Below, piece after piece: positions 3,948 through 20,225 of a stretch of 54,711 nt of DNA. The stretch comes from Stutzerimonas stutzeri. Lineage in GTDB: Bacteria > Pseudomonadota > Gammaproteobacteria > Pseudomonadales > Pseudomonadaceae. How positions within the stretch are numbered: the first letter of the stretch is position 1; the number at the start of each line of letters is the position of its first letter. The translations under genes were made by a program, and so were the position numbers. The stretch is taken from contig NZ_JAMOIC010000026.1 in the NCBI RefSeq assembly GCF_024448895.1, positions 1 through 54,711 of the forward strand, in the 5' to 3' direction. The notes under the pieces are model-generated. The model was not told the DNA's origin. It made no database searches and saw only the letters and a list, made by a program, of their open reading frames with translations.

Positions 3948-3959
3948 ATTGTGCACAAT
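3948..3959. promoter_or_regulatory. FadR/GntR-type operator ATTGTGCACAAT
   Basis: A perfect 12-bp palindrome with the TTGT-NN-ACAA core, in the gap between the GntR gene (minus) and the NCS2 permease (plus). The identical 12-mer occurs at 15416-15427 before the XanQ-like gene. It is placed to serve autoregulation of the GntR gene. Confidence 0.75.
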
Positions 3960-4068
3960 CAACATTCTGCCAATCTCGACACCTGAAGTCTCAGGTCCGG
4001 CATTCACAAGCAAAGAGCGTCTGCAACGCCGGAATCTATAGCCAACGAGACAAACTCAACAAATCGAG

Positions 4069-4096
4069 TTGCAATTTTTGTATACAAAAGCATAAT
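4069..4096 (+). promoter_or_regulatory. Promoter with embedded GntR operator before the AzgA-type permease
   Basis: A -35-like TTGCAA (4069-4074) and a -10-like CATAAT (4091-4096) are separated by 16 bp. That spacer is almost exactly filled by the perfect 14-bp palindrome TTTTGTATACAAAA (4076-4089). A bound regulator would block RNA polymerase, so this geometry suggests a repressor. The rest of the gap 3849-4216 is AT-rich with no gene. Confidence 0.7.
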
Positions 4097-4216
4097 CGCG
4101 ACAAGCCTTCCTGACCTTTCGGTCAAAAAAATCGAACAGGATGAGCCCTCACCATCACCTGCCCTCGAGAGCACTGCTCTGGGTGATAGACAACAAGAAC
4201 GATGAGGAACACCCTT

Positions 4217-5563
4217 GTGGAAAGCACCAAGCAGGAACAGGCGGCCCTAGGGCTGCAGCCGAAAAACCCCGGCTTGCTCGACCGATTCTTCAAACTCAGC
4301 GCCCACCGAACCACTATCAAGACCGAGCTGCTTGCTGGCCTGACGACCTTCGTCACCATGGCCTATATCATCTTCGTCAATCCCAACATCATGGCTGACG
4401 CCGGCATCGATCACGGTGCAGCCTTCGTTGCGACCTGCATCGGGGCAGCGCTCGGTTGCCTGCTGATGGGCCTGTACGCCAATTGGCCGGTAGGGCTGGC
4501 GCCGGGCATGGGCCTCAACGCATTCTTCACCTACACGGTCGTCGGCGAGATCGGCTACAGCTGGCAGATCGCGCTAGGCGCAGTGTTCATCTCCGGCATC
4601 CTGTTCATGATCATGAGCCTGTCTCGCCTGCGCGAATGGCTGCTCAACAGCATCCCGATGAGCCTGCGCTTCGCCATGGGCGCTGGTGTGGGGTTGTTTC
4701 TCGGATTGATCGGCCTTAAGACCGCCGGCATCGTCGTTGACAGCCCCGCCACACTGATAACCATGGGTTCGTTCGGCGAACCTACTGCCCTGCTCGCCGC
4801 CATCTGCTTTCTGATGATCGCCGTACTCAGCCACCGCAACGTCTTCGGCGCAATTTTGGTGAGCATGCTGGTGGTGACGGGCATCGGCTGGGCGATGGGG
4901 CTGGTCGAGTACAACGGCCTGGTTTCAATGCCGCCTAGCCTGGCGCCGACCTGGTTGGCCATGGATATCGCCGGCGCGTTGAATGTGGCGATGGTGAGCG
5001 TGATCCTGGCGTTCCTCTTCGTGAACATGTTCGACACGGCCGGCACGCTCATGGGCGTCGCTCACCGCGCCAACCTCGTCGACGACGACGGCAAGATCCA
5101 GAATCTCTCGCGGGCCCTTAAAGCCGACAGTACGTCTAGCGTCGCAGGGGCCTTCGTCGGTTGTCCGCCAGTCACCAGCTACGTCGAAAGCGCTGCGGGC
5201 GTGGCAGCGGGCGGTCGCACCGGGCTGACTGCAGTCACCGTCGGGGCGCTGTTCCTCGTCGCGATGTTTTTCGCTCCCCTGGCCGGCATGATCCCTGCGT
5301 ATGCCACAGCCGGAGCGCTGATCTATGTCGCCATGCTGATGATGAGCGGCCTGGCTAACATCGACTGGAAGGACCATACCGATACCATTCCGGCTATTGT
5401 CACGGTTGTGATGATGCCCCTGACGTTCTCCATCGCCAACGGCATTGCGCTGGGCTTTCTGACGTACGCGACGCTGAAGCTGCTGACCGGGCAACGGGAA
5501 AAGGTCTCGATCAGCCTGTATGTGTTGTGTGTGATCTTTATTGCCAAGTTCGCCTTTCTGTAA
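4217..5563 (+). CDS. NCS2 purine permease, AzgA/PbuG clade (adenine/guanine/hypoxanthine)
   Basis: A ~448-residue inner-membrane proton symporter for purine bases, with 12-14 membrane segments. The clade-specific motifs are present: NWPVGLAPGMGLNAFF in the N-terminal half, NMFDTAGTLMGVAHRA, and SYVESAAGVAAGGRTG, with the substrate-site Glu in SYVESAAG. I prefer the GTG at 4217, eight bases after AGGA, because the protein then begins (M)ESTKQEQ as in close relatives; an ATG at 4202 would add five residues. A terminator follows at 5581. It lies next to and divergent from the GntR regulator, with an operator in its promoter. Hypoxanthine or guanine is the most likely substrate, but this is inference. 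Confidence 0.9.
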   Translation: MESTKQEQAALGLQPKNPGLLDRFFKLSAHRTTIKTELLAGLTTFVTMAYIIFVNPNIMADAGIDHGAAFVATCIGAALGCLLMGLYANWPVGLAPGMGLNAFFTYTVVGEIGYSWQIALGAVFISGILFMIMSLSRLREWLLNSIPMSLRFAMGAGVGLFLGLIGLKTAGIVVDSPATLITMGSFGEPTALLAAICFLMIAVLSHRNVFGAILVSMLVVTGIGWAMGLVEYNGLVSMPPSLAPTWLAMDIAGALNVAMVSVILAFLFVNMFDTAGTLMGVAHRANLVDDDGKIQNLSRALKADSTSSVAGAFVGCPPVTSYVESAAGVAAGGRTGLTAVTVGALFLVAMFFAPLAGMIPAYATAGALIYVAMLMMSGLANIDWKDHTDTIPAIVTVVMMPLTFSIANGIALGFLTYATLKLLTGQREKVSISLYVLCVIFIAKFAFL

Positions 5564-5580
5564 GCCGGGCTGACCGATCG

Positions 5581-5609
5581 GCCTCACTGCTTCGGCGGTG
5601 GGGCTTTTT
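5581..5609 (+). terminator. Rho-independent terminator after the AzgA-type permease
   Basis: The stem GCCTCACTGC / GCGGTGGGGC closes on a TTCG loop and is followed by five T. It starts 18 bp after the permease stop codon. Confidence 0.8.
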
Positions 5610-5636
5610 GACGTTTGGGATGGGTGCGGGGTGCGC

Positions 5637-5675
5637 TTGATGGGTATCGCTTCGCTCAACACCATCCGACGGTCG
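5637..5675. repeat. Interspersed GATGGGTATCGC-type repeat
   Basis: The element GATGGGTATCGCTTCGCTCA followed by ACACCATCC is a copy of a family seen again at 6539-6600 and 6625-6656. The ends (GATGG / CCATC) can pair. It lies between a terminator and the LysE-family gene. Confidence 0.7.
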
Positions 5676-5750
5676 AGGCGTAGCGTAGCTTCAGGGCCAC
5701 CGCAGCGCCGGGTCAGATAGCCGAACATACTTTTATCGAGGAGCATCGAA

Positions 5751-6377
5751 ATGAGTCTGGAAACCTGGTTGTTGTTCGCGAGCGCGGCGCTGGTGGTCAT
5801 CTTGATCCCCGGCCCGTTGTCGCTGCTGATGATCAGCAACAGCCTCAATTATGGGCTGAGGCGCTCCTGGCCGGCCTTCGTCGGGGGCGTCAGTGCGTCG
5901 ATCTGCCTGCTCAGCGCCTCGGCATTGGGATTGGGCGCGTTGCTGCTGGCGTCGGAGCAGGTATTCAGCCTGTTGAAGATTGTCGGTGCGCTCTATCTGT
6001 TCTACCTCGCCTGGCAGAGCTGGCAGGAATCCCGTCACCCGGCCAGCGGGCCCAGCGTGGCGACTGCTGAGGTCAGCCCGCGCTTTCGTCAGCTGTTCTG
6101 GCGCGCCTTTGGACTGGGCGCAAGCAACCCCAAGGACATTCTCTTTTTTGCAGCCTTCCTGCCGCAGTTTCTCAGCGCTGATCGCCCGTTCATGCCGCAA
6201 CTGCTGGTGATGATCCTGACCTGGGCGGTTCTGGATCTCTGCTGCAAGTTGGCCTACGGGCTTGGTGCGCATGGGGCGGCGCGCTACCTGCGCACTGGCA
6301 AGGGGCAGGTCTGGTTCAACCGGATCAGTGCTGCGCTGTTTGGGGGCGCGGGGGCGGTTTCGTTGGTGAGTCGCTGA
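5751..6377 (+). CDS. LysE/RhtB-family exporter
   Basis: A 208-residue membrane protein with about six hydrophobic segments. The N-terminal family motif region is VILIPGPLSLLMISNSLNYG (the PGP of the LysE/RhtB superfamily), and ASNPKDILFFAAFLPQF lies in the middle, which is diagnostic for this family of amino-acid and metabolite exporters. The start ATG is preceded by GAGGAG. It stands alone between repeats and shows no GntR-type operator, so a link to purine metabolism is not supported. The substrate cannot be told from sequence. Confidence 0.9.
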   Translation: MSLETWLLFASAALVVILIPGPLSLLMISNSLNYGLRRSWPAFVGGVSASICLLSASALGLGALLLASEQVFSLLKIVGALYLFYLAWQSWQESRHPASGPSVATAEVSPRFRQLFWRAFGLGASNPKDILFFAAFLPQFLSADRPFMPQLLVMILTWAVLDLCCKLAYGLGAHGAARYLRTGKGQVWFNRISAALFGGAGAVSLVSR

Positions 6378-6393
6378 GGATGGTCGCATCGTC

Positions 6394-6656
6394 GTAGGAG
6401 CGAGCTTGCTCGAGTAATTTGTGACCGTCCGCGGTATGGCCGATTGGCGGAATAGGCTGGAACATTGGTCCACCCAGCAGGGCGAAACCAATGCTTCGTC
6501 CAGCGCCGCAAAATACGGAGCACCCCACGAAGCGAAACGCGATACCCATCAGCGGCACCGATGGGTATCGCAGGCTCAACCCATCCTGCGGACGCAACGC
6601 CTTGCCACCGACACCACCCGTAGTATGGCGTTGAGCGAAGCGATACCCATCAAAAC
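6394..6656. repeat. Cluster of REP-like and GATGGGTATCGC repeats
   Basis: A half REP-like unit GTAGGAGCGAGCTTGCTCG (about 6395-6413) is followed by a perfect 12-bp inverted repeat GCGATACCCATC / GATGGGTATCGC (6539-6550 and 6560-6571). An inverted copy containing GAGCGAAGCGATACCCATC lies at 6631-6649. The whole gap 6378-6668 between the LysE-family gene and the uraH terminator has no gene and consists largely of such elements. Confidence 0.75.
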
Positions 6657-6668
6657 CGAGCCCTATCT

Positions 6669-6696
6669 CAAAAAAAACCCGCCTTCAAAGGCGGGT
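6669..6696 (-). terminator. Rho-independent terminator of uraH
   Basis: The perfect 9-bp stem ACCCGCCTT (677-685) / AAGGCGGGT (688-696) is flanked by eight A on the plus strand. Those become the T-tract for the minus-strand transcript. It lies 75 bp after the uraH stop. Confidence 0.85.
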
Positions 6697-6770
6697 CGGG
6701 ACTCAGGGGAGTCAAGGTCTCACGCATGGGAACGGTCACTGCCGCGTCGCTGCAAACGCGGCAGGCGCCA

Positions 6771-7124
6771 TCAGCTACCCCGATAAGTCGAGTAGCTGTA
6801 CGGCGAAATCAGAAGCGGCACATGGTAATGATCCTGCTCAGCGCTGATGCCGAAACGCAGCACCACCACATCAAGAAAGGCCGGCTCGGGAAGCGTCACG
6901 CCACGTGCGCGGTAGTAGTCGCCAGCCGCGAACTGCAGCTGATAGACACCGGAACGGTAGTTGTCGCCTTCCAGCAAGGGCGAATCGCAACGGCCTTCGG
7001 CGTTAGTCTGGCGAGAAGTGACCAGCTCGAGGCGTTCGCCTTCGACCCGATAGAGCTCTATTCGGATATTGCTGCCCGGGCAACCGTGGGCGGCATCCAG
7101 TACGTGAGTAGTCAAACGTCCCAT
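6771..7124 (-). CDS. uraH: 5-hydroxyisourate hydrolase (transthyretin-like)
   Basis: A 117-residue enzyme that hydrolyses 5-hydroxyisourate, the product of urate oxidation, to OHCU. It is a transthyretin-fold protein with the family hallmarks: N-terminal [14 protein letters not shown] with His7, Arg45 in NAEGRCD, the DHYHVPLL histidines (99, 101) and the C-terminal YRGS (114-117). I chose the ATG at 7124 because relatives begin [10 protein letters not shown]; an ATG four codons upstream is possible. It is divergent from puuE, and the gap between them has two GntR-type operators, so both are likely co-regulated. It acts directly after PuuD and before UraD. Confidence 0.95.
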
Positions 7125-7237
7125 AGATTCCAGCATCGCGGATCGCCCGCCGATGCTCGCCTCCTCTAGTGATCAATGGTGGAGTTGGGTCGAGCATAGC
7201 AGCTCGGATAAATAATTAAAGACAGTTTTTAAAGAAA

Positions 7238-7247
7238 TTGTACACAG
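7238..7247. promoter_or_regulatory. Putative GntR operator upstream of uraH
   Basis: TTGTACACAG matches TTGTNNACAA at nine of ten positions. It lies about 115 bp before the uraH start in the 7125-7480 gap shared with puuE. The rest of that gap is AT-rich with no gene. Confidence 0.55.
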
Positions 7248-7384
7248 TTTAAATTCCCAGGATTTGGCCCGTTTTCTGCTCATGCATTCATGCGCAGGCT
7301 TCTAGCGCACATGAACTCAGGTATCCAAATGCGAAATGCCTGTATCCCCTATGGCGGGCCAACGAACAGTCATGAGATTTTTGA

Positions 7385-7414
7385 TTTACAAAGTGCAAAA
7401 CGTTTTGTATACAA
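7385..7414 (+). promoter_or_regulatory. puuE promoter overlapped by a perfect GntR operator
   Basis: A -35-like TTTACA (7385-7390) and a -10-like TATACA (7408-7413) are separated by 17 bp. The palindrome TTGTATACAA (7405-7414) covers the -10. The overlap predicts repression of the puuE-uraD-alc genes. Confidence 0.65.
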
Positions 7415-7480
7415 TTGAGCCATGAAGGTCGCCCAGTACCTCGCAGCGGCGACCCGCGGATCAGACAAGGAATAACAACA

Positions 7481-8413
7481 GTGAGCGCCGACTACCCTCG
7501 CGACCTCATCGGCTATGCCGAGAACCCACCCCATCCGCAGTGGCCGGGTGCTGCCCGTATCGCCCTGTCCTTCGTACTCAACTATGAAGAAGGTGGCGAG
7601 CGCTGTGTGCTGCATGGCGACAAGGAGTCCGAAGCCTTCCTGTCCGAAATGGTTTCAGCTCAGCCGTTGCAGGGCGTGCGCAACATGAGCATGGAGTCGC
7701 TCTACGAATACGGTAGCCGTGCCGGCGTCTGGCGTCTGCTCAAGTTGTTCCGCAAGCACGACATCCCGCTGACCATCTTTGCCGTAGCGATGGCCGCGCA
7801 GCGCCACCCGGATGTGATCAAGGCCATGGTCGCCGACGGTCACGAGATCTGCAGCCACGGCTATCGCTGGATCGACTATCAGTACATGGACGAGGCGCAA
7901 GAGCGTGAGCACATGCTCGAAGCCATCCGCATCCTCACCGACATCGCCGGCGAGCGTCCGCTGGGTTGGTACACCGGCCGTACCGGCCCCAACACCCGGC
8001 GTCTGGTCCGCGAAGAAGGCGGCTTTCTCTACGACTCCGACACCTACGACGACGACCTGCCCTACTGGGACCCGGAGTCGACGCCGGACAAGCCGCATCT
8101 GGTAATCCCCTACACGCTGGACACCAACGACATGCGCTTCACCCAGGTGCAGGGCTTCAACAAGGGTGACGACTTCTACGAATACCTGAAGGATGCGTTC
8201 GACGTGCTGTACGCCGAAGGCTGCGAGGGTGCGCCAAAGATGTTGTCCATTGGCATGCACTGCCGCCTGCTGGGCCGGCCTGCCCGCATGGCCGCGCTGC
8301 AGCGCTTCATCGAGTACGCCAAGGGTCACGAACAGGTGTGGTTTGCCCGCCGTGTCGACATCGCCCGCCACTGGCACTCGACTCATCCGCTTACTCAGGA
8401 ACGCAGCCAATGA
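7481..8413 (+). CDS. puuE: Allantoinase PuuE (polysaccharide-deacetylase family)
   Basis: A 310-residue metal-independent allantoinase that opens allantoin to allantoate. It belongs to the NodB/polysaccharide-deacetylase fold rather than the amidohydrolases. Visible features are SFVLNYEEGGE near the N-terminus, GHEICSHGYRWIDYQ in the middle and the late SIGMHCRLLGRPAR motif. The start is the GTG at 7481, preceded by AAGGA at 7468; reading from 7415 would start inside the promoter region. Its stop overlaps the uraD start as ATGA, so translation is coupled. It is the first gene of puuE-uraD-alc. Confidence 0.93.
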   Translation: MSADYPRDLIGYAENPPHPQWPGAARIALSFVLNYEEGGERCVLHGDKESEAFLSEMVSAQPLQGVRNMSMESLYEYGSRAGVWRLLKLFRKHDIPLTIFAVAMAAQRHPDVIKAMVADGHEICSHGYRWIDYQYMDEAQEREHMLEAIRILTDIAGERPLGWYTGRTGPNTRRLVREEGGFLYDSDTYDDDLPYWDPESTPDKPHLVIPYTLDTNDMRFTQVQGFNKGDDFYEYLKDAFDVLYAEGCEGAPKMLSIGMHCRLLGRPARMAALQRFIEYAKGHEQVWFARRVDIARHWHSTHPLTQERSQ

Positions 8414-8925
8414 CCCCATTCAAGACCATCAAGCCGTCCAAACTCGACCGCGACACCTTTATCTCGACTTTCGCTGATGTCTACGAGCATTCGCCGTGGG
8501 TGGCGGACACCGTATTCCAGTCCGGCGTGGACGAGACGCTCGATTACGTCGAGGTAATGCACACCCGCATGTCTGAGGCGATGCTGGCCGCCCACCACGA
8601 CACCCAATTGGCGCTGATCAACTCTCACCCGGACCTTGCCGGCAAAGCTGCCGTTCGCGGCGAGCTGACCGCCTCAAGCACCGCAGAACAGGCCGGCGCC
8701 GGCATTCATGAATGCACCCCGGAAGAGTTCGCCCGCTTTACCGAACTGAACGATGCCTATAAAGCGAAGTTCGGCTTCATCTTCGTCATGGCCGTCAAAG
8801 GCAGTAACCGGCACCAGATCCTGGCGGCGTTCGAAGAGCGCATGCACAACTCGCAGGATCAGGAATTTGCACGCGCCCTGGCTGAGATCAACAAAATCGC
8901 ACTGTTCCGTCTGCAGGCGATGTAA
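8410..8925 (+). CDS. uraD: 2-oxo-4-hydroxy-4-carboxy-5-ureidoimidazoline (OHCU) decarboxylase
   Basis: A 171-residue enzyme that decarboxylates OHCU to S-allantoin, the last step of urate conversion. The catalytic His73 lies in NSHPDLAGK. The C-terminal half has the family pattern [20 protein letters not shown] followed by KG. The ATG at 8410 overlaps the puuE stop. It is followed 40 bp later by allantoicase. Note that the operon holds the steps on either side of PuuE in one transcript. Confidence 0.95.
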
Positions 8926-8965
8926 GCAAGAGACCCATCAGACGACACGAAGAGAAGAACAACGT

Positions 8966-9961
8966 ATGAAGAGCTACGCCGTACCTTTCGAAAAATACGT
9001 CAACCTGGCTGACGCCCGTCTGGGCACCAAGGCCATTTCCGTCACGGACGATTGGTTTGCCGACGTCAACCGGCTGTTCCAGCCGACGCCGGCCGTATGG
9101 AAGGAGGGCGTGTTCGATGATAACGGCAAGTGGATGGATGGCTGGGAGTCGCGCCGTAAGCGCTTCGAAGGCTTCGACCAAGCGGTCATTCGCCTCGGCG
9201 TGCCCGGCTCGATCAAGGGCGTCGACATCGACACCAGCTTCTTCACCGGCAATTTCCCGCCGTCGGCCTCGCTGGAAGCCTGCTTCCTCGCTGAGGGTGA
9301 TCCGGACGAAAACACTGTATGGACTGAAATCCTTCCCGCGGTAGAGCTACAAGGCAACAGCCACCACTACCACGAGATCGCGTTCGACAAGCCGTTTAGC
9401 CACCTGCGCTTCAACATCTATCCGGACGGTGGTGTAGCCCGCCTGCGCGTGCATGGCATACCGTTCCGCGACTGGAGCCGCGTGGGCGAAAACGAGCAGC
9501 TCGATCTCGCGTCAGCGCTCAATGGTGGTCGCGCACTGGCCTGCTCGGACGAGCATTTCGGTCGTATGAGCAACATCCTCAACCCGGGTCGCGGCATCAA
9601 CATGGGCGACGGCTGGGAAACCGCCCGCCGCCGCACGCCGGGCAATGATTGGGTCATCGTCGCGCTGGGTCATCCGGGCGAGATTGAACGCATCGTCGTC
9701 GACACCCTGCACTTCAAGGGCAACTACCCGGACAGCTGCAGCATCCAGGCGGCCTACGTCAAAGGTGGCACCGACAGCCAGATCGAAACCCAGAGCCTGT
9801 TCTGGCGTGAACTGCTGCCGAGCCAGAAGCTGGAAATGCACGCCGAACACGAATTCAGCGAGCAGATCGCCAGACTCGGTCCGATCACCCACGTGCGCCT
9901 GAACATCTTCCCGGACGGCGGTGTGAGCCGGCTACGGTTGTTTGGCAAGGCAGCGCGCTAA
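8966..9961 (+). CDS. alc: Allantoicase
   Basis: A 331-residue enzyme that splits allantoate into ureidoglycolate and urea. It shows the expected internal duplication of the allantoicase fold: the first half ends in [18 protein letters not shown] (about 150-167) and the second in [18 protein letters not shown] (about 310-327). The start ATG at 8966 is preceded by a purine-rich AGAGAAGAA. It follows uraD closely in the same operon. A 219-bp repeat-filled gap separates it from allA. Confidence 0.95.
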
Positions 9962-9970
9962 GGTCGCAAC

Positions 9971-10046
9971 TTGTAGGGTGGGCTTGCTACCTGACCGTCG
10001 GTGACTACACCGAGGTGGGCTGAAGCGGAGCGCCGCCCTACAGACG
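9971..10046. repeat. GTAGGGTGGGCT-type inverted repeat
   Basis: GTAGGGTGGGCTTGCTACC at about 9973 and the segment GGTGGGCTGAAGCGGAGC... ending in GCCCTAC at about 10041 can pair at their outer ends (GTAGGG / CCCTAC). This is an intergenic hairpin element after the alc stop. Confidence 0.6.
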
Positions 10047-10096
10047 GCATCAGCGGCATCGACCAGATTCCGCCGCCGACATAGACACATAACCCT

Positions 10097-10158
10097 GTAG
10101 GAGCGAGCTTGCTCGCGGATGACGCAACCGAGGATCGCGAGCAAGCTCGCTCCTACAT
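10097..10158. repeat. REP-like pair in inverted orientation
   Basis: TGTAGGAGCGAGCTTGCTCG (10098-10117) and its near-complete reverse complement CGAGCAAGCTCGCTCCTACA (10138-10157) form a long hairpin with a ~20-bp loop. T-tract sequence follows at 10158-10164. It is a copy of the element at 6395 and may also act as a terminator or transcript stabiliser between alc and allA. Confidence 0.8.
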
Positions 10159-10180
10159 TTTTTTAGATAACGAGCACAGC

Positions 10181-10705
10181 ATGCGCACACTCAAGATCGA
10201 ACCGTTGACCAAGGAAGCCTTCGCCCCGTTCGGTGATGTGATCGAAACCGAAGGCAGCGAATACTTCATGATCAATAACGGTTCCACCCGCCGCTACCAC
10301 AAGCTGGCGACGGTCGAGACCGCGCAGCCGGATGATCAGGCCATCATCAGCATTTTCACCGCCGACGCGCTGGATATGCCGCTGGTGATTCGCATGCTCG
10401 AAAGACACCCGCAGGGCAGCCAGGCTTTCATTCCGCTGCTCGGCAACCCTTTTCTGGTCGTGGTCGCGCCACTTGGCGATGCACCTGTACCGGGTAACGT
10501 CCGCGCCTTCTGCAGCAATGGAAGGCAGGGCGTCAACTACCACCGCGGCGTCTGGCACCACCCGGTGCTGACGATCGAAAAGCGGGATGAATTCCTGGTG
10601 GTCGATCGCAGCGGTTCTGGCAACAACTGCGACGAGCATTTTTTCACCGAGGACGAGCTGGTTCTCCTCGACCCCCACCGGGACTCCGAACAGGCCGCCG
10701 ACTGA
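10181..10705 (+). CDS. allA: Ureidoglycolate lyase
   Basis: A 174-residue cupin-like enzyme that cleaves ureidoglycolate into glyoxylate and urea, the final step of the pathway here. Family features are IEPLTKEAFAPFGDVIE at the N-terminus, SQAFIPL in the middle and YHRGVWHHPVL near residue 125, which holds the histidines of the active site. The start ATG at 10181 follows the REP pair. It lies 139 bp before puuD. Its operon status is uncertain because of the REP hairpin upstream. Confidence 0.93.
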   Translation: MRTLKIEPLTKEAFAPFGDVIETEGSEYFMINNGSTRRYHKLATVETAQPDDQAIISIFTADALDMPLVIRMLERHPQGSQAFIPLLGNPFLVVVAPLGDAPVPGNVRAFCSNGRQGVNYHRGVWHHPVLTIEKRDEFLVVDRSGSGNNCDEHFFTEDELVLLDPHRDSEQAAD

Positions 10706-10844
10706 TCAGCGAAGGGCATGACTGGCGACGCTGCCGTGCACAGCGACACCGGAACATGCGTGCTTCAGAAAAGCCGGAAACGTGCGACGAGTCGAATAAG
10801 AAGAAACAGCGGTTGGTACGCCGGCCGTGCAGGAGGTAATTATC

Positions 10845-12122
10845 GTGGAAGCACATCTGACCGAATGGCTGAACCTGAGTATTCGCTGGATTCACATGAT
10901 CGTTGGCGTCGCGTGGATCGGCGCCTCGTTCTATTTTGTCTGGCTGGAAAACAACCTCAACCGCGCCAACCCTCGCGATGGCCTCTCCGGCGATCTCTGG
11001 GCGATCCATGGCGGCGGTATCTATCACCTGGAAAAGTACAAGCTGGCACCGCCGCAGATGCCAGAGAACCTGCACTGGTTCAAGTGGGAGGCCTACACCA
11101 CCTGGCTCTCGGGCGTCGCACTGATGATGGTGGTCTACTACCTCAACCCGTCGCTTTACCTGATCGCACCCGGCAGCGAAATGGCGCCGGCCATGGCAAT
11201 CGCCATTGGTTTCGGTTCGCTGATCGTTGGCTGGTTCGTCTATGACCTGCTGTGCGACTCGCCACTGGGCAAGAAGCCAGCGCTGCTCGGCCTGGTGCTG
11301 TTCGTACTGGTGATCTTTGCCGCATGGGCCTATTCGCAGGTCTTCAGCGGTCGCGCGGCGTACATCCACACCGGTGCACTGATAGGCACCATCATGGTGG
11401 GTAACGTGTTCCGCATCATCATGCCGGCCCAGCGGGCGCTGGTCGCTGCCATCGAGCAGAACCGCACGCCAGACCCGGTACTGCCAGCCAAAGGCCTGCT
11501 GCGCTCGCGGCACAACAACTACTTCACCCTGCCCGTGCTGTTCATCATGATCAGCAACCACTTCCCGAGCACCTACGGCAGCAAATACAACTGGCTGATC
11601 CTGGCGGGCATATCGGTACTGGCCGTGCTGGTACGTCACTACTTCAACACCCGCCACGACAGCAATCGCTTTGCCTGGGCGTTGCCAGCTGCCGCGGTAG
11701 GGATGATCTGCCTGGCATTCGTCACTGCGCCTAACCGCCAGCCTTCTGCGCCGAATCTGGCACCGACGTCGCCCGAGCAGGCCAGCATGAGCGAACAGCA
11801 GACCGGTACCTCGAATGCAACTGAAGCTGATGCTGATGCTGGGGAAGCTGATGCTGGCAATAGCGAGTTCGCCAAGGTCCGTAGCGTCATCGATGAGCGC
11901 TGCACCGTTTGCCACGCCGCACAGCCGAGCAGCCCGCTGTTCAGCGCGGCGCCTGCAGGCGTGATGTTCGATACGCCCGAGCAGATCCGCCAGCAAGCGG
12001 CGAAGATCCATGCGCAATCTGTGGCCAGCCAGATCATGCCACTGGGCAACATGACCAACATGACCCAGGACGAGCGCGACCTGCTCGGTGCCTGGATCGA
12101 CAAAGGCGCCCCGATCGACTGA
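10845..12122 (+). CDS. puuD: Urate hydroxylase PuuD with C-terminal cytochrome c domain
   Basis: A 425-residue membrane-bound urate hydroxylase that oxidises urate to 5-hydroxyisourate and passes electrons to the respiratory chain rather than making peroxide. The N-terminal ~300 residues carry about eight membrane segments with conserved His-rich motifs (RWIHMIVGVAWIGASF, WAIHGGGIYHLEKY). A low-complexity linker rich in Ala, Asp and Glu repeats (ADADAGEADAGNS, about 325-338) leads to a cytochrome c domain with CTVCH at 353-357 and a likely Met ligand in QIMPLGNM. I chose the GTG at 10845, eight bases after a perfect AGGAGG. It is followed by a terminator, so uacT has its own promoter. Confidence 0.93.
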   Translation: MEAHLTEWLNLSIRWIHMIVGVAWIGASFYFVWLENNLNRANPRDGLSGDLWAIHGGGIYHLEKYKLAPPQMPENLHWFKWEAYTTWLSGVALMMVVYYLNPSLYLIAPGSEMAPAMAIAIGFGSLIVGWFVYDLLCDSPLGKKPALLGLVLFVLVIFAAWAYSQVFSGRAAYIHTGALIGTIMVGNVFRIIMPAQRALVAAIEQNRTPDPVLPAKGLLRSRHNNYFTLPVLFIMISNHFPSTYGSKYNWLILAGISVLAVLVRHYFNTRHDSNRFAWALPAAAVGMICLAFVTAPNRQPSAPNLAPTSPEQASMSEQQTGTSNATEADADAGEADAGNSEFAKVRSVIDERCTVCHAAQPSSPLFSAAPAGVMFDTPEQIRQQAAKIHAQSVASQIMPLGNMTNMTQDERDLLGAWIDKGAPID

Positions 12123-12136
12123 TCTCCGCTGCATCT

Positions 12137-12163
12137 GCCGCGCCTCCGGGCGCGGCTTTTTTT
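12137..12163 (+). terminator. Rho-independent terminator after puuD
   Basis: The perfect 8-bp stem GCCGCGCC / GGCGCGGC with a TCCG loop is followed by seven T, starting 15 bp after the puuD stop. Confidence 0.92.
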
Positions 12164-12331
12164 CACCCTGACCTTACTCAGTCACACGCGAAAAGCGAGG
12201 ACTCTGCACGCCCAAATTCAGCCCCAGCGGGTACGACCAAGCCAGAACCCGAGCACCCAAAAAACCTGGCTCCGCATGTTCAGCGGGGCCGCCGCGACCC
12301 TCCAATAACAAAAGCGTCCGAGGTGTTTTGC

Positions 12332-13678: not shown

Positions 13679-13698
13679 CGACCGCTCCGCTCACCCAG

Positions 13699-13725
13699 GC
13701 CCGCCTCGTGCGGGCTTGCTTTTTT
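13699..13725 (+). terminator. Rho-independent terminator after the UacT-like permease
   Basis: The 6-bp stem GCCCGC / GCGGGC with loop CTCGT is followed by TTGC and six T. Confidence 0.82.
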
Positions 13726-13816
13726 CCGCAGCGGCCCGACACTCGACAAGCCGTGGGCCACCGTTAGAATGCCCCGCCTCCCTGACCGCCCGCTCCGACT
13801 GCTGAAGGACTGATCG

Positions 13817-15364
13817 ATGATCGAAGCAACCTGGATCGCTTTCGCGTTCATCCTTGGCCTCGCCGCGCGTTCGGTCGGATTGCCCCCGCTGATCGGCTAT
13901 CTGTGTGCGGGTTTTGCCTTGGCAGGCTTCGGCAACCACTTCGGCGTCGGCCCAACCGACAGCGTGATCCTGGAACACTTGGCACATCTGGGCGTTCTGC
14001 TGCTGCTCTTCACCGTCGGCCTCAAGCTCAAGCTGAGCAATCTGGTGCGACGGGAAGTCATCGGCGGTAGCCTGCTGCACTTCGGTATTTCGAGCCTGGT
14101 GGTGCTGCCCGCGATCCTGGTCTTTCTCGATACCAGCTTTCGCGAAGGTCTGTTGCTGGCGATTGCTCTGTCGTTTTCCAGCACCGTGCTGGCCGCCAAG
14201 GTGCTGGAAGGCAAGCGTGAACTGCGCGCCTTCCATGGCCGGGTGGCGATTGGCGTACTCATCATTCAGGATCTGATTGCCTTGGTGGTGATGAGCATTG
14301 CCAGCGGCAAGGTGCCATCGGCCTGGGCACTGCTGGTGTTCGGCTTGCCATTGTTGCGCCCCTTGTTGTTCCGCCTGCTCGATCACAGCGGCCACGAGGA
14401 GCTGATGGTGCTGCTGGGCCTGATGCTGGCGCTGGTAGCCGGCGGTTTGGGCTTCGAATACGTGGGCCTCAGTTCGGAACTGGGCGCCCTGGCCTTCGGT
14501 GCGATGCTGGCCAAGCACAAGCGGGCCACCGAGCTTTCCAATTCGCTGTGGGCGATCAAAGAAGTCTTTCTGGTGGGCTTCTTCCTGCAGATCGGCATCG
14601 GCGGATTGCCGGGCGTGGACGCCATGCTCTTTGCCGGCGCTGTGGCGCTTTTGCTGCCGCTCAAGGGCGCGCTGTTCTTCTTCCTATTCGTGCTCTTCCG
14701 CCTGCGCGCGCGTAGCGCATTTCTCAGCGCCGCGAGCCTGACCAACTACAGCGAGTTCGGCCTGATCGTTGCCAGCGTGGTGCTGCCGCAATGGCTCACG
14801 CCGCTCGCGATCACGGTGGCCTTGTCCTTCGTCATCTCAGCCCAGCTGAACCGCATTTCCCACCCCTTGTATGACCGGCTAGCCAGAAGGCTGATTCCAC
14901 TGGAGCGCAATACCCGCCATCCCGATGAGCAGCCTGTTTCGCTGGGCGATGCCCAGATCCTGATCATGGGCATGGGCCGCACCGGGCGCGCCGCCTACGA
15001 CCATCTGCAGCATCAGGGCTGGCGTCTGATCAGCCTCGACTCGGACCCGGTGACAGTTGAGAAAAGCGGCGCGAAAGGCCGCCACGTTCTGTTCGCCGAC
15101 GCCGAGGATCAGATGTTCTGGGAGAGCCTGGAGATGAACAAGGTCGAGGCCGTGATCCTGGCGATGAACGATGCCGAGGCCAAGATCATCTCGACCCGCA
15201 AGTTGCGCGGCAAAGGCTTCGAGGGGCTGATCGTCTCGCACGCCATGTACGAAGACATCGCCCAGCAGATCGAAGAAGCCGGCGCGGACCGCACCTACCT
15301 GACCATGAGTGAAGCCGGTGCCGGCCTGGCCGAGCACGTAGCCCGGGAGCTGCGCTCCAGCTGA
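13817..15364 (+). CDS. CPA2-family cation:proton antiporter with TrkA-N domain (KefB/YbaL-like)
   Basis: A 515-residue protein. Residues 1 to ~370 form a Na+/H+ exchanger domain with 11-12 membrane segments (VGLPPLIGYLCAGFALAG; FSSTVLAAKVLEGKRE; IIQDLIALVVM). Residues ~385-505 form a Rossmann RCK/TrkA-N domain (ILIMGMGRTGRAAYDHLQ, then LISLDSDP). Its likely role is potassium or proton homeostasis gated by a nucleotide. The ATG is preceded by AAGGA. It lies between two purine permease genes but has no TTGTNNACAA site before it. It is probably a bystander in the purine island. No glutathione-binding partner gene (KefF/KefG) is adjacent. Confidence 0.88.
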   Translation: MIEATWIAFAFILGLAARSVGLPPLIGYLCAGFALAGFGNHFGVGPTDSVILEHLAHLGVLLLLFTVGLKLKLSNLVRREVIGGSLLHFGISSLVVLPAILVFLDTSFREGLLLAIALSFSSTVLAAKVLEGKRELRAFHGRVAIGVLIIQDLIALVVMSIASGKVPSAWALLVFGLPLLRPLLFRLLDHSGHEELMVLLGLMLALVAGGLGFEYVGLSSELGALAFGAMLAKHKRATELSNSLWAIKEVFLVGFFLQIGIGGLPGVDAMLFAGAVALLLPLKGALFFFLFVLFRLRARSAFLSAASLTNYSEFGLIVASVVLPQWLTPLAITVALSFVISAQLNRISHPLYDRLARRLIPLERNTRHPDEQPVSLGDAQILIMGMGRTGRAAYDHLQHQGWRLISLDSDPVTVEKSGAKGRHVLFADAEDQMFWESLEMNKVEAVILAMNDAEAKIISTRKLRGKGFEGLIVSHAMYEDIAQQIEEAGADRTYLTMSEAGAGLAEHVARELRSS

Positions 15365-15415
15365 CTGGATGCAGCAGACGTGACCGGCTGATGGCCCGGC
15401 GGCTCGCTCGTCATA

Positions 15416-15427
15416 ATTGTGCACAAT
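15416..15427. promoter_or_regulatory. GntR operator ATTGTGCACAAT before the XanQ-like gene
   Basis: A perfect palindrome identical to the one at 3948-3959. A weaker TTGTNNACAA-like site, CTGTTCACAG, lies at 15451-15460, 34 bp downstream centre to centre. The 210-bp gap between the antiporter and the permease holds no gene. Confidence 0.75.
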
Positions 15428-15574
15428 CCGTAAATTTATTGTTTCAACTGCTGTTCACAGGTTGTTATAGTCGAGCCAACCTGACCGATCGAACAGCTTT
15501 CGACGGCCAGTGAACGAGGTCCGTGCAGCCTCGAAAGCCCATGACCGAACAATAACGAATGGCAGGCTTGACTC

Positions 15575-17074
15575 ATGACCGCAACCGAATCCAGGAGCGG
15601 TGACGCTCCCAATCAGGACCTGATCTATCAGCTCGAAGATCGTCCAGGTCCGCTCCCCGCTACCTTCGCCGCGATACAGCACGTGCTCGCGAGCTTCGTC
15701 GGCGTCATCACTCCAACCCTGATCATCGGCAGCGTGCTCGGCCTGGGCGATTACGTACCCTATCTCGTCAGCATGGCGCTATTCGTCTCGGGGATCGGCA
15801 CCTTTATCCAGGCAAAGCGCATCGGTCCGATCGGGGCTGGAATGCTTTGCCTGCAGGGCACCAGCTTCGGCTTTCTCAGTGTGATCCTGGCGGCAGGCTT
15901 CATCGTCAAGGGACGCGGTGGCAGCCCCGAAGACATTCTCGCGACCCTGTTCGGTGTCAGTTTCTGCGCCGCTTTCGTCGAGATCGCCGTAAGCCGTTGC
16001 ATCGACAAGCTGCGCCGGATCATCACGCCAGTGGTCACGGGCACCATCATCTGCTTGATGGGGTTGTCACTGATCAAGGTGTCGATGACCGACATCGCCG
16101 GCGGCTACGGTGCCGAAGACCCCGGCGCCTTGCCGAATCTGGCGCTGGCTGGCCTGGTACTCGGGACCATCATCGTCCTCAATCGCTTCGGCATCCCACT
16201 GCTGCGCTTGTCAGCCGTCATTGTCGCGCTGATGGTGGGTTACTTCGCCGCCTGGATGATGGGAATGGTGGACTTTTCCAGCCTCGCGACGCTGCCGGCC
16301 ATCAGCGTGCCGCAGCCATTCAAGTTCGGTTTCGCGTTCGACTGGATGGCCTTCATCCCCATTGCGGTGATCTTCCTGATCACACCGCTTGAGACAGCAG
16401 GCGATCTGACTGCCAATTCGATGATTTCCCGCGAGCCCGTCAAGGGCCCGCTGTATATCAAGCGGATCAAAGGCGGCATCCTCGGTGACGGCTGCAGCTC
16501 GCTGCTGGCGGCCACCTTCAACAGCCTGCCGATGACGACTTTCAGCCAGAACAACGGGGTGATCCAGCTGACCGGCGTTGCCAGCCGCCATGTTGGGATT
16601 TATATCGCCGGCATTCTGGTCTTGCTGGCGCTGTTCCCCGTGGTGGGCGGCGTGCTCCAGCTAATGCCCAAACCAGTGCTCGGTGGCGCCACGCTGATCA
16701 TGTTCGGCACGGTCGCCATCGCCGGGATCAAGATCCTCGCCGAAGCCGGCCTCAACCGCCGTAACATGCTGATCGTCGCGATTTCGCTGGGTCTGGGCCT
16801 GGGCGTCGCGGCGGTGCCGGACGTGCTCAACCACCTGCCCGAGGTGCTGAAGAACATCTTCGGTTCGCCGATCACAATCGGCGCGTTCAGTGCGATCCTG
16901 CTCAACTTCTTCCTGCCACGCGAGCCGGAGGAACTCGACGACTACGACCCGGACAACCTGATCGAGGATTCCGTTGGCACCAACACCCTGGCGGTAAACA
17001 TCCCCGACTATTCCAAGGTTCATCCGAAAGCGACCACCAGTGATCCGTCCTCGCAGCTGACGCCTACAGGCTGA
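15575..17074 (+). CDS. NCS2 xanthine permease (XanQ/XanP-like)
   Basis: A 499-residue inner-membrane symporter. It carries the motifs that in E. coli XanQ and XanP form the xanthine site: PLETAGDLTANS (Glu-x-x-Gly-Asp) and NSLPMTTFSQNNGVIQLTGV, almost identical to the XanQ stretch. The early His is in AIQHVLASFVG. About 30 C-terminal residues are polar and acidic. The start ATG at 15575 has only a weak ribosome-binding site. A perfect GntR operator lies 150 bp upstream, and a Tsx-like outer-membrane channel follows 75 bp downstream, so the pair may carry xanthine or xanthosine across both membranes. Confidence 0.9.
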   Translation: MTATESRSGDAPNQDLIYQLEDRPGPLPATFAAIQHVLASFVGVITPTLIIGSVLGLGDYVPYLVSMALFVSGIGTFIQAKRIGPIGAGMLCLQGTSFGFLSVILAAGFIVKGRGGSPEDILATLFGVSFCAAFVEIAVSRCIDKLRRIITPVVTGTIICLMGLSLIKVSMTDIAGGYGAEDPGALPNLALAGLVLGTIIVLNRFGIPLLRLSAVIVALMVGYFAAWMMGMVDFSSLATLPAISVPQPFKFGFAFDWMAFIPIAVIFLITPLETAGDLTANSMISREPVKGPLYIKRIKGGILGDGCSSLLAATFNSLPMTTFSQNNGVIQLTGVASRHVGIYIAGILVLLALFPVVGGVLQLMPKPVLGGATLIMFGTVAIAGIKILAEAGLNRRNMLIVAISLGLGLGVAAVPDVLNHLPEVLKNIFGSPITIGAFSAILLNFFLPREPEELDDYDPDNLIEDSVGTNTLAVNIPDYSKVHPKATTSDPSSQLTPTG

Positions 17075-17148
17075 CCAGCCCAAGCACCCGGCGTATCGCG
17101 CGCCGGGTGCAGCTCGTATTCACAACAACAAAACCAAAGGGTATCGAC

Positions 17149-17967
17149 ATGACCTTCAAGCGCGCACCACTTTCGCTGGCGCTGGCCGGCTGCCTGCTGT
17201 CCGCCCCGGCCTTCGCCGATGGGATGCTGCACTGGCAGAACAACAGCCTGACCTATCTCTATGGCAAGGATTACAAGATAAACCCGCCGATTCAGCAAAC
17301 GCTGACCTTCGAGCACGCCAGCGGATGGGACTGGGGCGATATGTTCCTGTTCGTCGACAATATCTTCTACAACGGCGAGAGCGGCAGCGACGGGCATACC
17401 TATTACGGTGAGTTCAGCCCTCGCCTCTCGCTGGGCAAACTCAGCGGCCAGGACATGAGTTTCGGCCCGATCAAGGACGTGCTGCTCGCAGCAACCTACG
17501 AGCGTGGTGAGAGCACCAATGGTGTACCGAATCAGAACTATTTGCTCGGCCCCGCCGTTGACCTGGATGTACCCGGCTTCGACCGTCTGGCGATCAACGT
17601 CTATTACCGCAAACCCGACGGCACCACCGGCAAGCCAGGCGGCCAATGGCAGGTCACGCCAACCTGGGCCATGACCTTCCCGGTGGGCAAATCGGACATT
17701 CTGTTCGACGGCTTCATCGACTGGGTGGTCAACGACGCAGGTTCCGAACGACGCGGGGATTTCATCTCGAAGAACCTGCACATAAATCCGCAGATCAAGT
17801 ACGACTTGGGCAAAGCGCTGGATGGTGAGCCGGGCAAGCTGTATGTCGGCATCGAGTATGACTACTGGTCGGACAAGTACGGCATCGAGGACGGCGGTTT
17901 CGTCAGCGATCTGGTCGGCGGCACTAACCAGAACACTGCCAGCCTGTTGGTCAAAGCGCACTTCTGA
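17149..17967 (+). CDS. Tsx-like outer-membrane nucleoside/nucleobase channel
   Basis: A 272-residue outer-membrane beta-barrel. The signal peptide is about residues 1-24 (LLSAPAFA|DG). The mature protein has the Tsx-family start LHWQNNSLTYLYGKDY, an aromatic-rich region FEHASGWDWGDMFLFVDN, and ends in a C-terminal Phe after alternating residues (SLLVKAHF), as barrel proteins do. AAAGG lies eight bases before the ATG. It is downstream of the XanQ-like permease and ends at a terminator, so it likely belongs to the same operon. Uptake of purine bases or nucleosides is inferred from family and position. Confidence 0.88.
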   Translation: MTFKRAPLSLALAGCLLSAPAFADGMLHWQNNSLTYLYGKDYKINPPIQQTLTFEHASGWDWGDMFLFVDNIFYNGESGSDGHTYYGEFSPRLSLGKLSGQDMSFGPIKDVLLAATYERGESTNGVPNQNYLLGPAVDLDVPGFDRLAINVYYRKPDGTTGKPGGQWQVTPTWAMTFPVGKSDILFDGFIDWVVNDAGSERRGDFISKNLHINPQIKYDLGKALDGEPGKLYVGIEYDYWSDKYGIEDGGFVSDLVGGTNQNTASLLVKAHF

Positions 17968-17983
17968 CCCATACCCGAAGCAT

Positions 17984-18012
17984 GAAAAAGCAGCCAGAGT
18001 GGCTGCTTTTTC
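17984..18012. terminator. Bidirectional terminator between the Tsx-like gene and the chemoreceptor
   Basis: The near-perfect 13-bp stem GAAAAAGCAGCCA / TGGCTGCTTTTTC has a 3-nt loop, with A- and T-tracts on both sides. It serves the convergent Tsx-like (plus) and chemoreceptor (minus) genes. Confidence 0.9.
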
Positions 18013-18089
18013 GTTTCTAACTAGAGCCCGTGCTACTTGTCCGTGAGCCAATGGTCACGACCGGACCGTTAGACAAATCCCTCAACGGG

Positions 18090-20021
18090 TCAGAGCTTGA
18101 AGCTGCCCATCTGCCGGCTGAGGTCGTCTGCCAGACGGCTCAGCGCATGGCAGTCTTCGCGACAGCCCTGCACGTCGCTCGCCGTGGCCTGAGCCAGATC
18201 GGCGATGCCCTGAACATTGTGCGTGATCTCCTCGGTGACGCTGCTCTGCTCTTCGGTCGCGGCAGCCACCTGGGTGTTCATGTCACTGATCGACTCGACC
18301 TGCTCGGTGATGGCACTGAGCGACAAACCCGTACGCTGGCTCGCCTGCACACCCGTACCCGTGGCGGCCTGGCCGGCGCGCATGGAATTGACCGCGTTCT
18401 GGGCGCCGCTCTTGAGGCCCTGAATCATCTGCTGGATCTCATCGGTCGACGCCTGAGTCCGGCTGGCAAGGGTCCGCACCTCATCCGCCACAACGGCAAA
18501 ACCGCGTCCCATCTCGCCGGCGCGCGCCGCCTCGATGGCCGCGTTGAGCGCCAGCAGATTGGTTTGTTCGGAAATGCTGCGGATCACGGCCAGGACCTTG
18601 TCTATGGACGCAACCTGCTCCGCCAGATCAGTGACCGACTCCGCGGCATGCCCGATTTCACCGGACATCGTCTCGATATGTGAAATCGAATCGCTGACGA
18701 CCTTGCGCGCCTCCATCGCCTCACTGCGGGCACCTTGCGAGGCTTGGGCGGCGTTGCTCGCATTGCGGGCAATCTCTTGCACGGTCAGTCCCATCTCATG
18801 GACGGCGGTGGCGACCATGTCGGTCATTTCATGCTGGCGACCGGCACGAGTGGCGGTGTTATCGACCACCTGAGCGACCTGCGCCACTGCGGTGCGCAGC
18901 TGCTGACTGGTACTCAGGGCATCGCCAATCAACTCGCGCAAACTACCGATGAAGCGGTTGAAACCTCGGGCAAGATCACCCAGTTCGTCGGCACGACTTT
19001 CGTCCAGACGACGGGTGAGATCACCGCCACCGCCGCCGATTTCCACCAGCGCATTGGTGACCTGACGGATCGGTTTGACGAGTCCGCGCGCCAGCAACAC
19101 CACCAGGCCGAGGAAGAACAGCGCGATACAGGCGCCGATCAGGCTGATGGTCCACAGCGTGCGACGCGCCTCGGCGAAGATTTCCGCTTCCGGCACTTCA
19201 CTGACCAGCACCCAGCCGAGGCTTTCCAGCGGCTGTGCAATGGCCAGGAAGGCTACGCCCTCCCGCTCGAACCGCACGGCGCCCTGGGTGCCTTTCAGCA
19301 GTTGCTGCGCGGCATCAGTGCCCGTCAGCGCACTGAGTTCGGTGCGGTCGTTGTTATCGGTTTTCGGATGAACCTTGACGCGGCCGTCGCCGTTGATGAG
19401 GTAAACCTCACCACGCTCACCGAAGCGGAAATTGCTGATCAGTTCCGACATGCTCTTGAGGCTGAAGCCAAGACCGGCGACACCCAATGTCTTGCCGCCC
19501 GCTTCGATACGCTGGTTGATGAACAGGGTCGGTTGATGGGAGGCCTTATCGATATCTATCTCGAAGCGCCGCTCGGTGCCGCTGTCGACGAGGCTGTAGA
19601 ACCAGCCGTCACCCGCCGCACTGCGATTGAGCGTGCGAGAGAGCCCGGCCTCGGAGTAATAGTTGCCGCTTCCAAGCACAGCGATTGAGGTTGTCAGTGC
19701 GCTCTGCTGCGCCTTGACACCGTTCAGATATGCACCGATCGCATCGGACGACCTCCCGGTTTCGCCGCTGCGCAGCCAGTCATGCACCAGCGTATTGCTG
19801 GCAATGCCTGCCGTGGCGGTGATCGGCGCCGCCAGGGTGCGCTCGATGTCGTTTCGGATCGCGGCAATGTTGGCAGGCAGGGCCTGACCGACCAGATAAC
19901 GCTCAGCGAGCCGATTGACTGCGGATGAATAAACAAGAATGACGATGAGGGTGCTGGTTAGCAGTGCAGCCCCCATGCTGATGATCAATTGCCACTGGAT
20001 ACTGCGCTGCATGAAAGGCAT
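18090..20021 (-). CDS. Methyl-accepting chemotaxis protein with dCache-like sensor, candidate purine receptor
   Basis: A 643-residue chemoreceptor. The first membrane segment is ~14-34; a periplasmic sensor of ~250 residues (~35-284) has the double-Cache layout; the second membrane segment is ~287-307, followed by HAMP and a signalling domain. The conserved hairpin tip [20 protein letters not shown] is at ~486-505. No C-terminal NWETF-type tether for CheR is present. Two GntR-like sites lie directly upstream (20046-20055 and 20068-20077). Pseudomonas putida McpH is an established dCache receptor for metabolisable purines. Position plus operators make this protein a candidate of that type, but the ligand cannot be read from sequence alone. 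Confidence 0.92.
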
Positions 20022-20045
20022 TACGTCGACCTCGGCTATCGCGTT

Positions 20046-20077
20046 ACGTACACAATATTATTTTTATCTGTATACAA
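20046..20077 (-). promoter_or_regulatory. Paired GntR-like operators before the chemoreceptor
   Basis: CTGTATACAA (20068-20077) matches TTGTNNACAA at nine of ten positions. ACGTACACAA (20046-20055) is a weaker half-conserved copy. Their centres are 22 bp apart, about two helical turns. They lie in an AT-rich stretch 25-56 bp before the start codon. Confidence 0.6.
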
Positions 20078-20215
20078 TTAATATAATCCTGACGCCAGAG
20101 ATCTATCGGCCCGGCCATCATTGGCTTAAGACCGTTCGGCGGATCGCATGGAGAGGAACGCACGAAGGCTCCAGGTCGCAATGCATAAAGCCAGGGCAGG
20201 CCGAGCGAAGACGGT

Positions 20216-20225
20216 TTGTATACAA
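20216..20225 (+). promoter_or_regulatory. Perfect GntR operator TTGTATACAA before the TetR gene
   Basis: A perfect palindrome 113 bp upstream of the RutR-family gene, identical to the core at 4078-4087 and 7405-7414. It suggests that the TetR-type regulator is itself in the purine regulon. The gap 20022-20337 holds no gene. Confidence 0.65.

Follow-up and report, generated by a model that had tools for sequence, protein, structure and literature searches.

What controls the purine-breakdown genes in a 54,711-nucleotide stretch of Stutzerimonas stutzeri DNA (contig NZ_JAMOIC010000026.1; the window, taken at its full length), and how far does that control reach? A sequence-only reading had pointed to a palindrome repeated in the promoter gaps and to a GntR protein encoded beside them. 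Following this up across the genome and its relatives, we put the probability at roughly 0.87 that the purine-breakdown genes of the window form a regulon under an FCD-domain GntR repressor of the UgmR (PA1520) type. Binding, repression and the role of urate as inducer are expected here by analogy with UgmR of Pseudomonas aeruginosa (PMC12694930). The regulator gene, the predicted operators and the genes that they precede are listed below; contigs of this genome are given as C numbers and loci as L numbers.

3093..3848, minus strand: predicted GntR repressor gene (gntR), UgmR (PA1520) type, 251 amino acids; PF00392 and PF07729 (FCD) above cut-off
3949..3958: operator TTGTGCACAA, exact TTGTNNACAA, 100 bp upstream of the gntR start; putative autoregulation
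4078..4087: operator TTGTATACAA, exact, upstream of azgA, within the spacer of TTGCAA-16-CATAAT
4202..5563, plus strand: AzgA-like NCS2 purine permease gene (azgA); PF00860; the AzgA label is a manual reading, assigned by no model
6771..7136, minus strand: uraH, hydroxyisourate hydrolase; TIGR02962 above cut-off
7238..7247: operator TTGTACACAG (9 of 10), upstream of uraH in the gap common to puuE
7405..7414: operator TTGTATACAA, upstream of puuE; a possible promoter, TTTACA-17-TATACA, has its -10 inside this operator
7481..8413, plus strand: puuE, allantoinase; TIGR03212 above cut-off
15417..15426: operator TTGTGCACAA, exact, upstream of the second xanthine-type permease gene
15575..17074, plus strand: NCS2 xanthine-type permease gene (second); TIGR03173
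18090..20021, minus strand: McpH-like, probably purine-sensing chemoreceptor gene (mcp); match to McpH, 8BMV, E 7e-70
20068..20077: operator CTGTATACAA (9 of 10), 46 bp upstream of mcp
20216..20225: operator TTGTATACAA, exact, between mcp and tetR
20338..20961, plus strand: TetR gene (tetR), RutR/YcdC-like, possible PA1504 counterpart; PF08362, TIGR03613 below cut-off

The palindromes and their conservation

Exact copies of TTGTNNACAA occur five times in the window (3949-3958, 4078-4087, 7405-7414, 15417-15426 and 20216-20225), all in promoter gaps. The chance level was a mean of 0.39 copies, and none of 100 dinucleotide shuffles gave five or more. The sequence-only reading had counted at least six good copies; the excess is real, but only five of the copies are perfect and a further two are near matches. 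These last, 7238-7247 (TTGTACACAG) and 20068-20077 (CTGTATACAA), match at nine of ten positions. When one mismatch was allowed, 18 matches were found in the window against 9.87 expected, a number attained by 2 of the 100 shuffles; because this is only about twofold above chance, the copies at 7238 and 20068 depend on conservation. Two further copies match at eight of ten positions, at 20046 (ACGTACACAA) and 15451 (CTGTTCACAG), and the latter (15451-15460) was rejected as an operator, its TC centre being unlike that of the conserved operators.

Across the whole genome (5.39 Mb) there are 21 exact palindromes, and finding five within 16.3 kb compares with 0.05 expected from this background (Poisson P ~2e-9). 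TTGTATACAA itself occurs four times, three times in the window and once at C2:287044, before an NCS1 permease gene. Fourteen of the 15 other genome palindromes were inspected (C47:11152 was left out), and by manual reading most lie in or beside unrelated open reading frames (ORFs): the copies of TTGTGCACAA on C6 and C15 are within ORFs, and TTGTCGACAA precedes another FCD GntR gene. Genome matches with one mismatch on C4, C9, C14 and C24 likewise seem unrelated (manual reading). At C6:277487, CTGTATACAA begins 25 bp upstream of an ORF read manually as a MATE-like transporter, which is either a further target or chance.

Relatives of the GntR protein with 71-100% identity were found in 107 of 198 family genomes searched. 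Conservation was counted in the best 80 gntR loci listed from Pseudomonas and Stutzerimonas genome contigs (the named loci), the closest being that of Stutzerimonas zhaodongensis at 96%; each count covers 300 bp upstream in those loci having the gene and a full upstream stretch, with shuffle means of 0.07-0.11. An exact site with a purine-pyrimidine (RY) centre precedes gntR in 77 of 79 loci (78 of 79 within one mismatch), azgA in 38 of 38, uraH in 31 of 31 and puuE in 30 of 30. These counts are not independent, since gntR and azgA share one gap, uraH and puuE share another, and the species are related. Among the 184 exact palindromes in the 80 named loci, 173 are RY-centred (TTGT-RY-ACAA), 9 have the reverse (YR) centre and 2 are RR/YY; the reversed pattern occurs 17 times. 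The conserved operator is TTGTRYACAA. The FadR-type consensus TNGTNNACNA suggested earlier proved too loose for naming sites, with 24 matches in the window against 5.69 expected, and was dropped. The regulator, the palindrome and the list of target genes proposed from the window are otherwise supported.

For the permeases, the counts keep only matches of at least 60% identity, so that paralogues are excluded. Upstream of the second xanthine permease, an exact site is present in 9 of 9 cases in one locus set and in 7 of 8 named loci, and all 8 named loci have a site when 420-base stretches are taken. The window encodes two xanthine-type permeases in total; xanP1 has an exact site in 1 of 22 cases. 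Upstream of lysE, an exact site was found in 1 of 23 in one count and a site within one mismatch in 1 of 15 in another, and no RY site within one mismatch precedes kef (10 loci) or tsx (12 loci). In L070 (3048) and L071 (4761), where the second xanthine permease was not found, the exact RY site stays between tsx and kef; there it may serve tsx or another gene.

The remaining purine genes, and the channel gene that follows the second permease, are as follows.

8410..8925, plus strand: uraD, OHCU decarboxylase; TIGR03164; no operator of its own
8966..9961, plus strand: alc, allantoicase; TIGR02961; no operator of its own
10181..10705, plus strand: allA, ureidoglycolate lyase; NF002949; no operator of its own
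10827..12122, plus strand: puuD, urate oxidase (N-terminal family); PF06181; no operator of its own
17107-17967, directly after the second xanthine-type permease gene: Tsx-like channel gene; PF03502

In the window, neither allA nor puuD has TTGTNNACAA upstream within one mismatch, and the named loci show none with an RY centre upstream of uraD (0/30), alc (0/18), allA (0/30) or puuD (0/30) at the same tolerance. Non-RY matches with one mismatch were seen in the 420-base stretches of relatives before uraD (one), allA (one) and puuD (two). It had been noted from the window that puuD and allA lack an equally good site, and the relatives agree. The four genes follow puuE on the same strand, with a 4 bp overlap and then gaps of 40, 219 and 121 bp, and the lack of sites of their own is most simply explained by read-through from puuE. 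Given this gene order, the graded regulon proposed at first is not needed; separate control of allA-puuD is possible. A consensus scan gave no promoter-like match in the alc-allA or allA-puuD gap, and the former measures 46-249 bp in 16 relatives.

The probable regulator and the centre of the site

All of uraH, puuE, uraD, allA and puuD lie near gntR in 20 of 20 regions, taken from 20 of the 107 genomes. The motif RLSGEFHL is present in 100 of 100 gntR orthologues; FCD metal sites carry Asp where this motif has Ser. Beside the regulator gene lies a set read manually as znuABC-like zinc uptake genes (294-2972), and in 5 of 20 relatives gntR is likewise flanked by a match to znuC.

The link to UgmR was made through published PA1520 primers (PMC1173109), which align to the window gntR with two mismatches and one mismatch, at codons 146-150 (GEFHL) and 218-223 (IDSKLN), respectively. 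The PA1520 deletion in the same paper ends at codon 145, in agreement with a primer match that starts at codon 146 of the window gene. From these primer stretches, the window GntR is taken as a probable orthologue of UgmR. In P. aeruginosa, UgmR is reported to bind before gcl and PA1513-1518 and to repress both (PMC12694930, citing Xu et al. 2022, doi 10.1111/1462-2920.16088), and to be relieved by uric acid, not by allantoin (PMC12694930). A UgmR-type repressor system is therefore already known in kind, and the probable orthologue here adjoins the same purine genes; the sites here differ in also preceding the genes of a purine-type chemoreceptor and of two permeases (the second xanthine permease and one of NCS1 type) and in occurring in the mcp/tetR gap.

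Whether the site follows the regulator could be asked of genomes without a close orthologue. Out of 91 such genomes, 71 were searched and 35 had puuE (E <=1e-60), from which 30 loci were taken. An exact site precedes puuE in 21 of the 24 loci from genomes with a GntR homologue of 38-43% identity (E <1e-40), and an exact or RY site in none of the 6 loci from genomes whose best homologue has E >=2.5e-20 (Fisher P 1.4e-4, an optimistic value given that the six loci span three genera and genomes of one genus are not independent). One of these six, L197, has a single non-RY match with one mismatch before puuE. The homologue adjoins puuE in seven of the fetched loci.

The linked GntR had been called the only such regulator present. 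That holds within the window; in the genome, Pfam FCD matches number 11, or ten genes should two of the pieces belong together, and the operator of one paralogue is almost the same. Another FCD protein might thus bind the palindromes in place of the linked GntR, one candidate being the paralogue preceded by TTGTCGACAA in its own promoter. By manual reading it adjoins prp-like genes, and its DNA-binding part is nearly identical to that of PDB 7xp0 (7xp0/7xp1, entry 'Probable transcriptional regulator'; the best-scoring solved relative by sequence), which we take to be PmiR, reportedly the 2-methylisocitrate repressor. The PmiR-type gene and the window gntR are alike in having a palindrome with the same TTGT/ACAA half-sites in their own promoters. 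They differ at its centre. A CG-centred palindrome within one mismatch is found in the PmiR-type promoter in 28 of 28 genomes; exact TTGTNNACAA is found in 25 of 28, nearly always with CG, once with TG and once with CA. In the window, each of the seven operators is centred on AT, GC or AC, and none on CG. With the purine-gene sites RY-centred, with sites that track the GntR homologue (21/24 against 0/6) and with the exact site in the promoter of the linked gntR itself (77/79), binding by another FCD protein appears very improbable.

The proteins also differ in recognition helix and wing. PmiR has the recognition helix SRGPLREAIHRL and the wing PHVGA; the window GntR has SRTIIRRALSRL and PNRGA. 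The wing of RY-site regulators contains a basic residue: it reads PNRGA or PNRGG in 100 of 100 orthologues, while the 38-43% homologues have PGKGA, ANRGA or PNRGA. The residue after the helix arginine is R or K in these regulators, whereas PmiR has PLRE. A third case is AlkR, a VanR-group FCD protein that protects ATTGTCAGACAAT, covering the -10, and whose wing arginines lie in the minor groove of an AlphaFold model (PMC12042122). Its operator half-sites equal those here, but the centre has three bases, the ligand is acyl-CoA and the targets are alkane genes. Judged from these three regulators, the site centre may keep FCD repressors apart. The wing alone may not decide, since paralogues in L337-L339 have PNRGA with E after the arginine.

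Other FCD genes were also surveyed. At the eight remaining FCD loci of the genome, the 250 bp upstream of the chosen ORF contain no exact TTGTNNACAA, with several ORF choices doubtful. Further paralogues of UgmR (42-54%) carrying RLSGEFHL lie in L333-L340, where the 2.6-2.8 kb retrieved showed no exact TTGTNNACAA. The PmiR-type gene of this genome (C1:51161-51834; L085:3162-3835) seems interrupted, with FCD in two pieces and relatives matching its open frame only to residue 145, and a further FCD match at C38:16660-17037 has the whole domain and PmiR-like residues.

Chemoreceptor, TetR gene and possible unlinked targets

Counts for mcp, tetR, gcl and the NCS1 permease gene were made in 28 of the 107 genomes. 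The sensor domain encoded by mcp aligns with that of McpH of P. putida (8BMV), with E 7e-70. At the motif positions that define McpH and the dCache_1PU purine sensors (Y121, R129, W140, F167, D/N169; PMC11245519) the window receptor reads YRWFN, sharing Y, R, W and F; YRWF[DN] is kept in 22 of the 23 best matches, with HRWFD in L320. The YRWFN variant is listed for another receptor in PMC11245519. It is therefore likely, from these residues, that the window chemoreceptor binds purines. A difference from McpH is that the receptor gene here sits in the purine cluster, and the available part of PMC11245519 holds no mention of UgmR controlling mcpH. Of 22 mcp counterparts, 16 have an RY site upstream with at most one mismatch (300 bp; shuffle mean 0.31, largest 2), at -56 to -61 in 11 of the 16. 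In 10 of the 16 (L306-L313, L316 and L317), mcp and gntR lie on different contigs or are separated by more than 2.8 Mb.

The TetR protein was also considered as E. coli RutR, the pyrimidine regulator, and this assignment was rejected, both model scores being under their cut-offs (TIGR03613, 169 bits against 368; PRK15008, 156.5 against 230). E. coli RutR recognises another motif. A counterpart of tetR is present in 28 of 28 genomes, and an RY site with at most one mismatch lies upstream of 14 of the 28 (300 bp; shuffle largest 3), in 13 cases at -108 to -143. The divergent neighbour varies: it is mcp in L270 and L271, a binding-protein-like gene in L273, L276 and L279, and moaA in L285, L286, L289, L291 and L296 (confirmed in L285), and it is unclear in L281, L282 and L287. 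This RutR-like protein might itself be the main regulator, with the palindromes as its operators, given that its counterpart was found throughout and lies near gcl in some genomes. Its promoter has a site within one mismatch in only 14 of 28 cases against 78 of 79 for gntR, and the published binding before the allantoin cluster is that of UgmR (PMC12694930), so that we give TetR as main regulator almost no credence.

Beyond the window, TTGTATACAA at C2:287044 lies 154-163 bp upstream of the NCS1 permease gene (PF02133; TIGR00800 and two allantoin-permease models below cut-offs), which adjoins ureC as read from the translation. This permease was found in 8 of 28 genomes, all 8 with a site within one mismatch; the L218 match reaches only 41% and could be to a paralogue. 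For gcl, found in 23 of 28 genomes, a site was seen in 12 of 23. These 12 are all of those outside this genus, each with two sites, at least one of them exact, near -36 and at -164 to -193 (L258-L269). Within the genus, none of 11 has any site within one mismatch, which we read as a change of the regulon and not of the regulator.

Proposed mechanism, counter-evidence and meaning

The positions of the sites relative to promoters bear on how they might act. The consensus scan found promoters in the azgA gap and a pair of them between mcp and tetR, and the possible puuE promoter TTTACA-17-TATACA was read manually. An operator that holds the -10 of puuE and another within the azgA spacer would fit blocking of RNA polymerase. 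The same overlap at puuE would also be seen if the palindromes were AT-rich -10 elements (TATACA, TACAAT) that recur simply as promoters, with no common repressor. Such elements would hardly account for the conservation of all ten bases, outer TT and AA included, for the existence of GC and GT centres, for the azgA site lying in a spacer, or for the 0 of 6 puuE promoters that keep a site where the regulator is missing, and this explanation, too, appears very improbable.

Under the proposal of a UgmR-type regulon, a dimer of the repressor would bind TTGTRYACAA operators that overlap or flank promoters. Its targets would be gntR, azgA, uraH and puuE (with uraD-alc and perhaps allA-puuD), together with the second xanthine permease, the McpH-like chemoreceptor, the mcp/tetR gap and one unlinked NCS1 permease. 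Urate formed in purine breakdown would bind the FCD domain and cause the repressor to release DNA, and uptake, the urate-to-glyoxylate enzymes and purine chemotaxis would then increase together.

Several observations weigh against this proposal. Before gntR and azgA, YR matches with one mismatch were found as well (8 of 79 and 12 of 38, respectively). Among genomes with a homologue, L196 has sites around the homologue and yet none before puuE, and in L198 and L199 puuE lacks a site, in genomes with two puuE copies (the second was left out). By consensus scan, neither the uraH/puuE gap nor that before the xanthine permease showed a promoter. Against read-through from puuE into allA-puuD in particular, a long inverted repeat, GTAGGAGCGAGCTTGCTCGCGG ... 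CGCGAGCAAGCTCGCTCCTAC, precedes a run of seven T in the 219 bp alc-allA gap (9962-10180) and might interrupt the operon; a terminator scan found nothing in this gap, the loop of the repeat being longer than the scan permits, and the repeat resembles the REP repeats of Pseudomonas. The mcp sites are exact in only 6 of 22 counterparts and absent in 6 of 22, and those of tetR are exact in only 4 of 28. A promoter-like block (TTGAG-N17-19-TANNAT) precedes tetR in 26 of 28 genomes, 21-53 bp beyond the site; with this block past the site and the neighbour varying, the site may act on tetR, on the divergent gene or on the two together. The window receptor naturally has N at the position where D169N in McpH lowered adenine affinity 80-fold (PMC11245519), so that its purine binding is likely and not sure. 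In contrast to what is reported for P. aeruginosa UgmR, gcl of this genome has no site within 450 bp upstream. Finally, no RY site was found upstream of xdh of this genome (the single one-mismatch match upstream of xdh/guaD in L083, TGGTCAACAA, has a CA centre and was not counted), and production of urate would then not depend on the switch that urate controls.

A wider reading, which we hold at about even odds, is that UgmR switches purine chemotaxis together with purine eating across Pseudomonas and Stutzerimonas, by repressing the McpH-like receptor, the genes of the tetR gap or both, and that several FCD repressors within one cell are split by the site centre. UgmR, PmiR and AlkR would share TTGT...ACAA, with a centre of RY, CG or three bases read by the wing and recognition helix. 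The TetR protein, under UgmR, would then be a candidate for the missing regulator through which gcl responds to allantoin. In the literature searched, we found no report of sites at the chemoreceptor gene, in the tetR gap or at the NCS1 permease gene, of gcl lacking sites in this genus or of the RY versus CG centres, some of which Xu 2022 may hold. The same search gave no paper with both TTGTATACAA and GntR, and none joining a chemoreceptor, uric acid, purine degradation and a repressor in Pseudomonas.

Judged by the conservation described here, a published repressor system reaches across both Pseudomonas and Stutzerimonas, and its operator can be narrowed to TTGTRYACAA. Were the wider reading true, purine chemotaxis would be tied to urate-controlled catabolism, and the glyoxylate branch (gcl) would fall outside the regulon in one genus. 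The PA1504-type TetR would then offer a handle on how allantoin induces gcl without UgmR, a question raised in PMC12694930, and the RY and CG operators would make a natural test case for the way in which paralogous FCD repressors keep off one another's sites.

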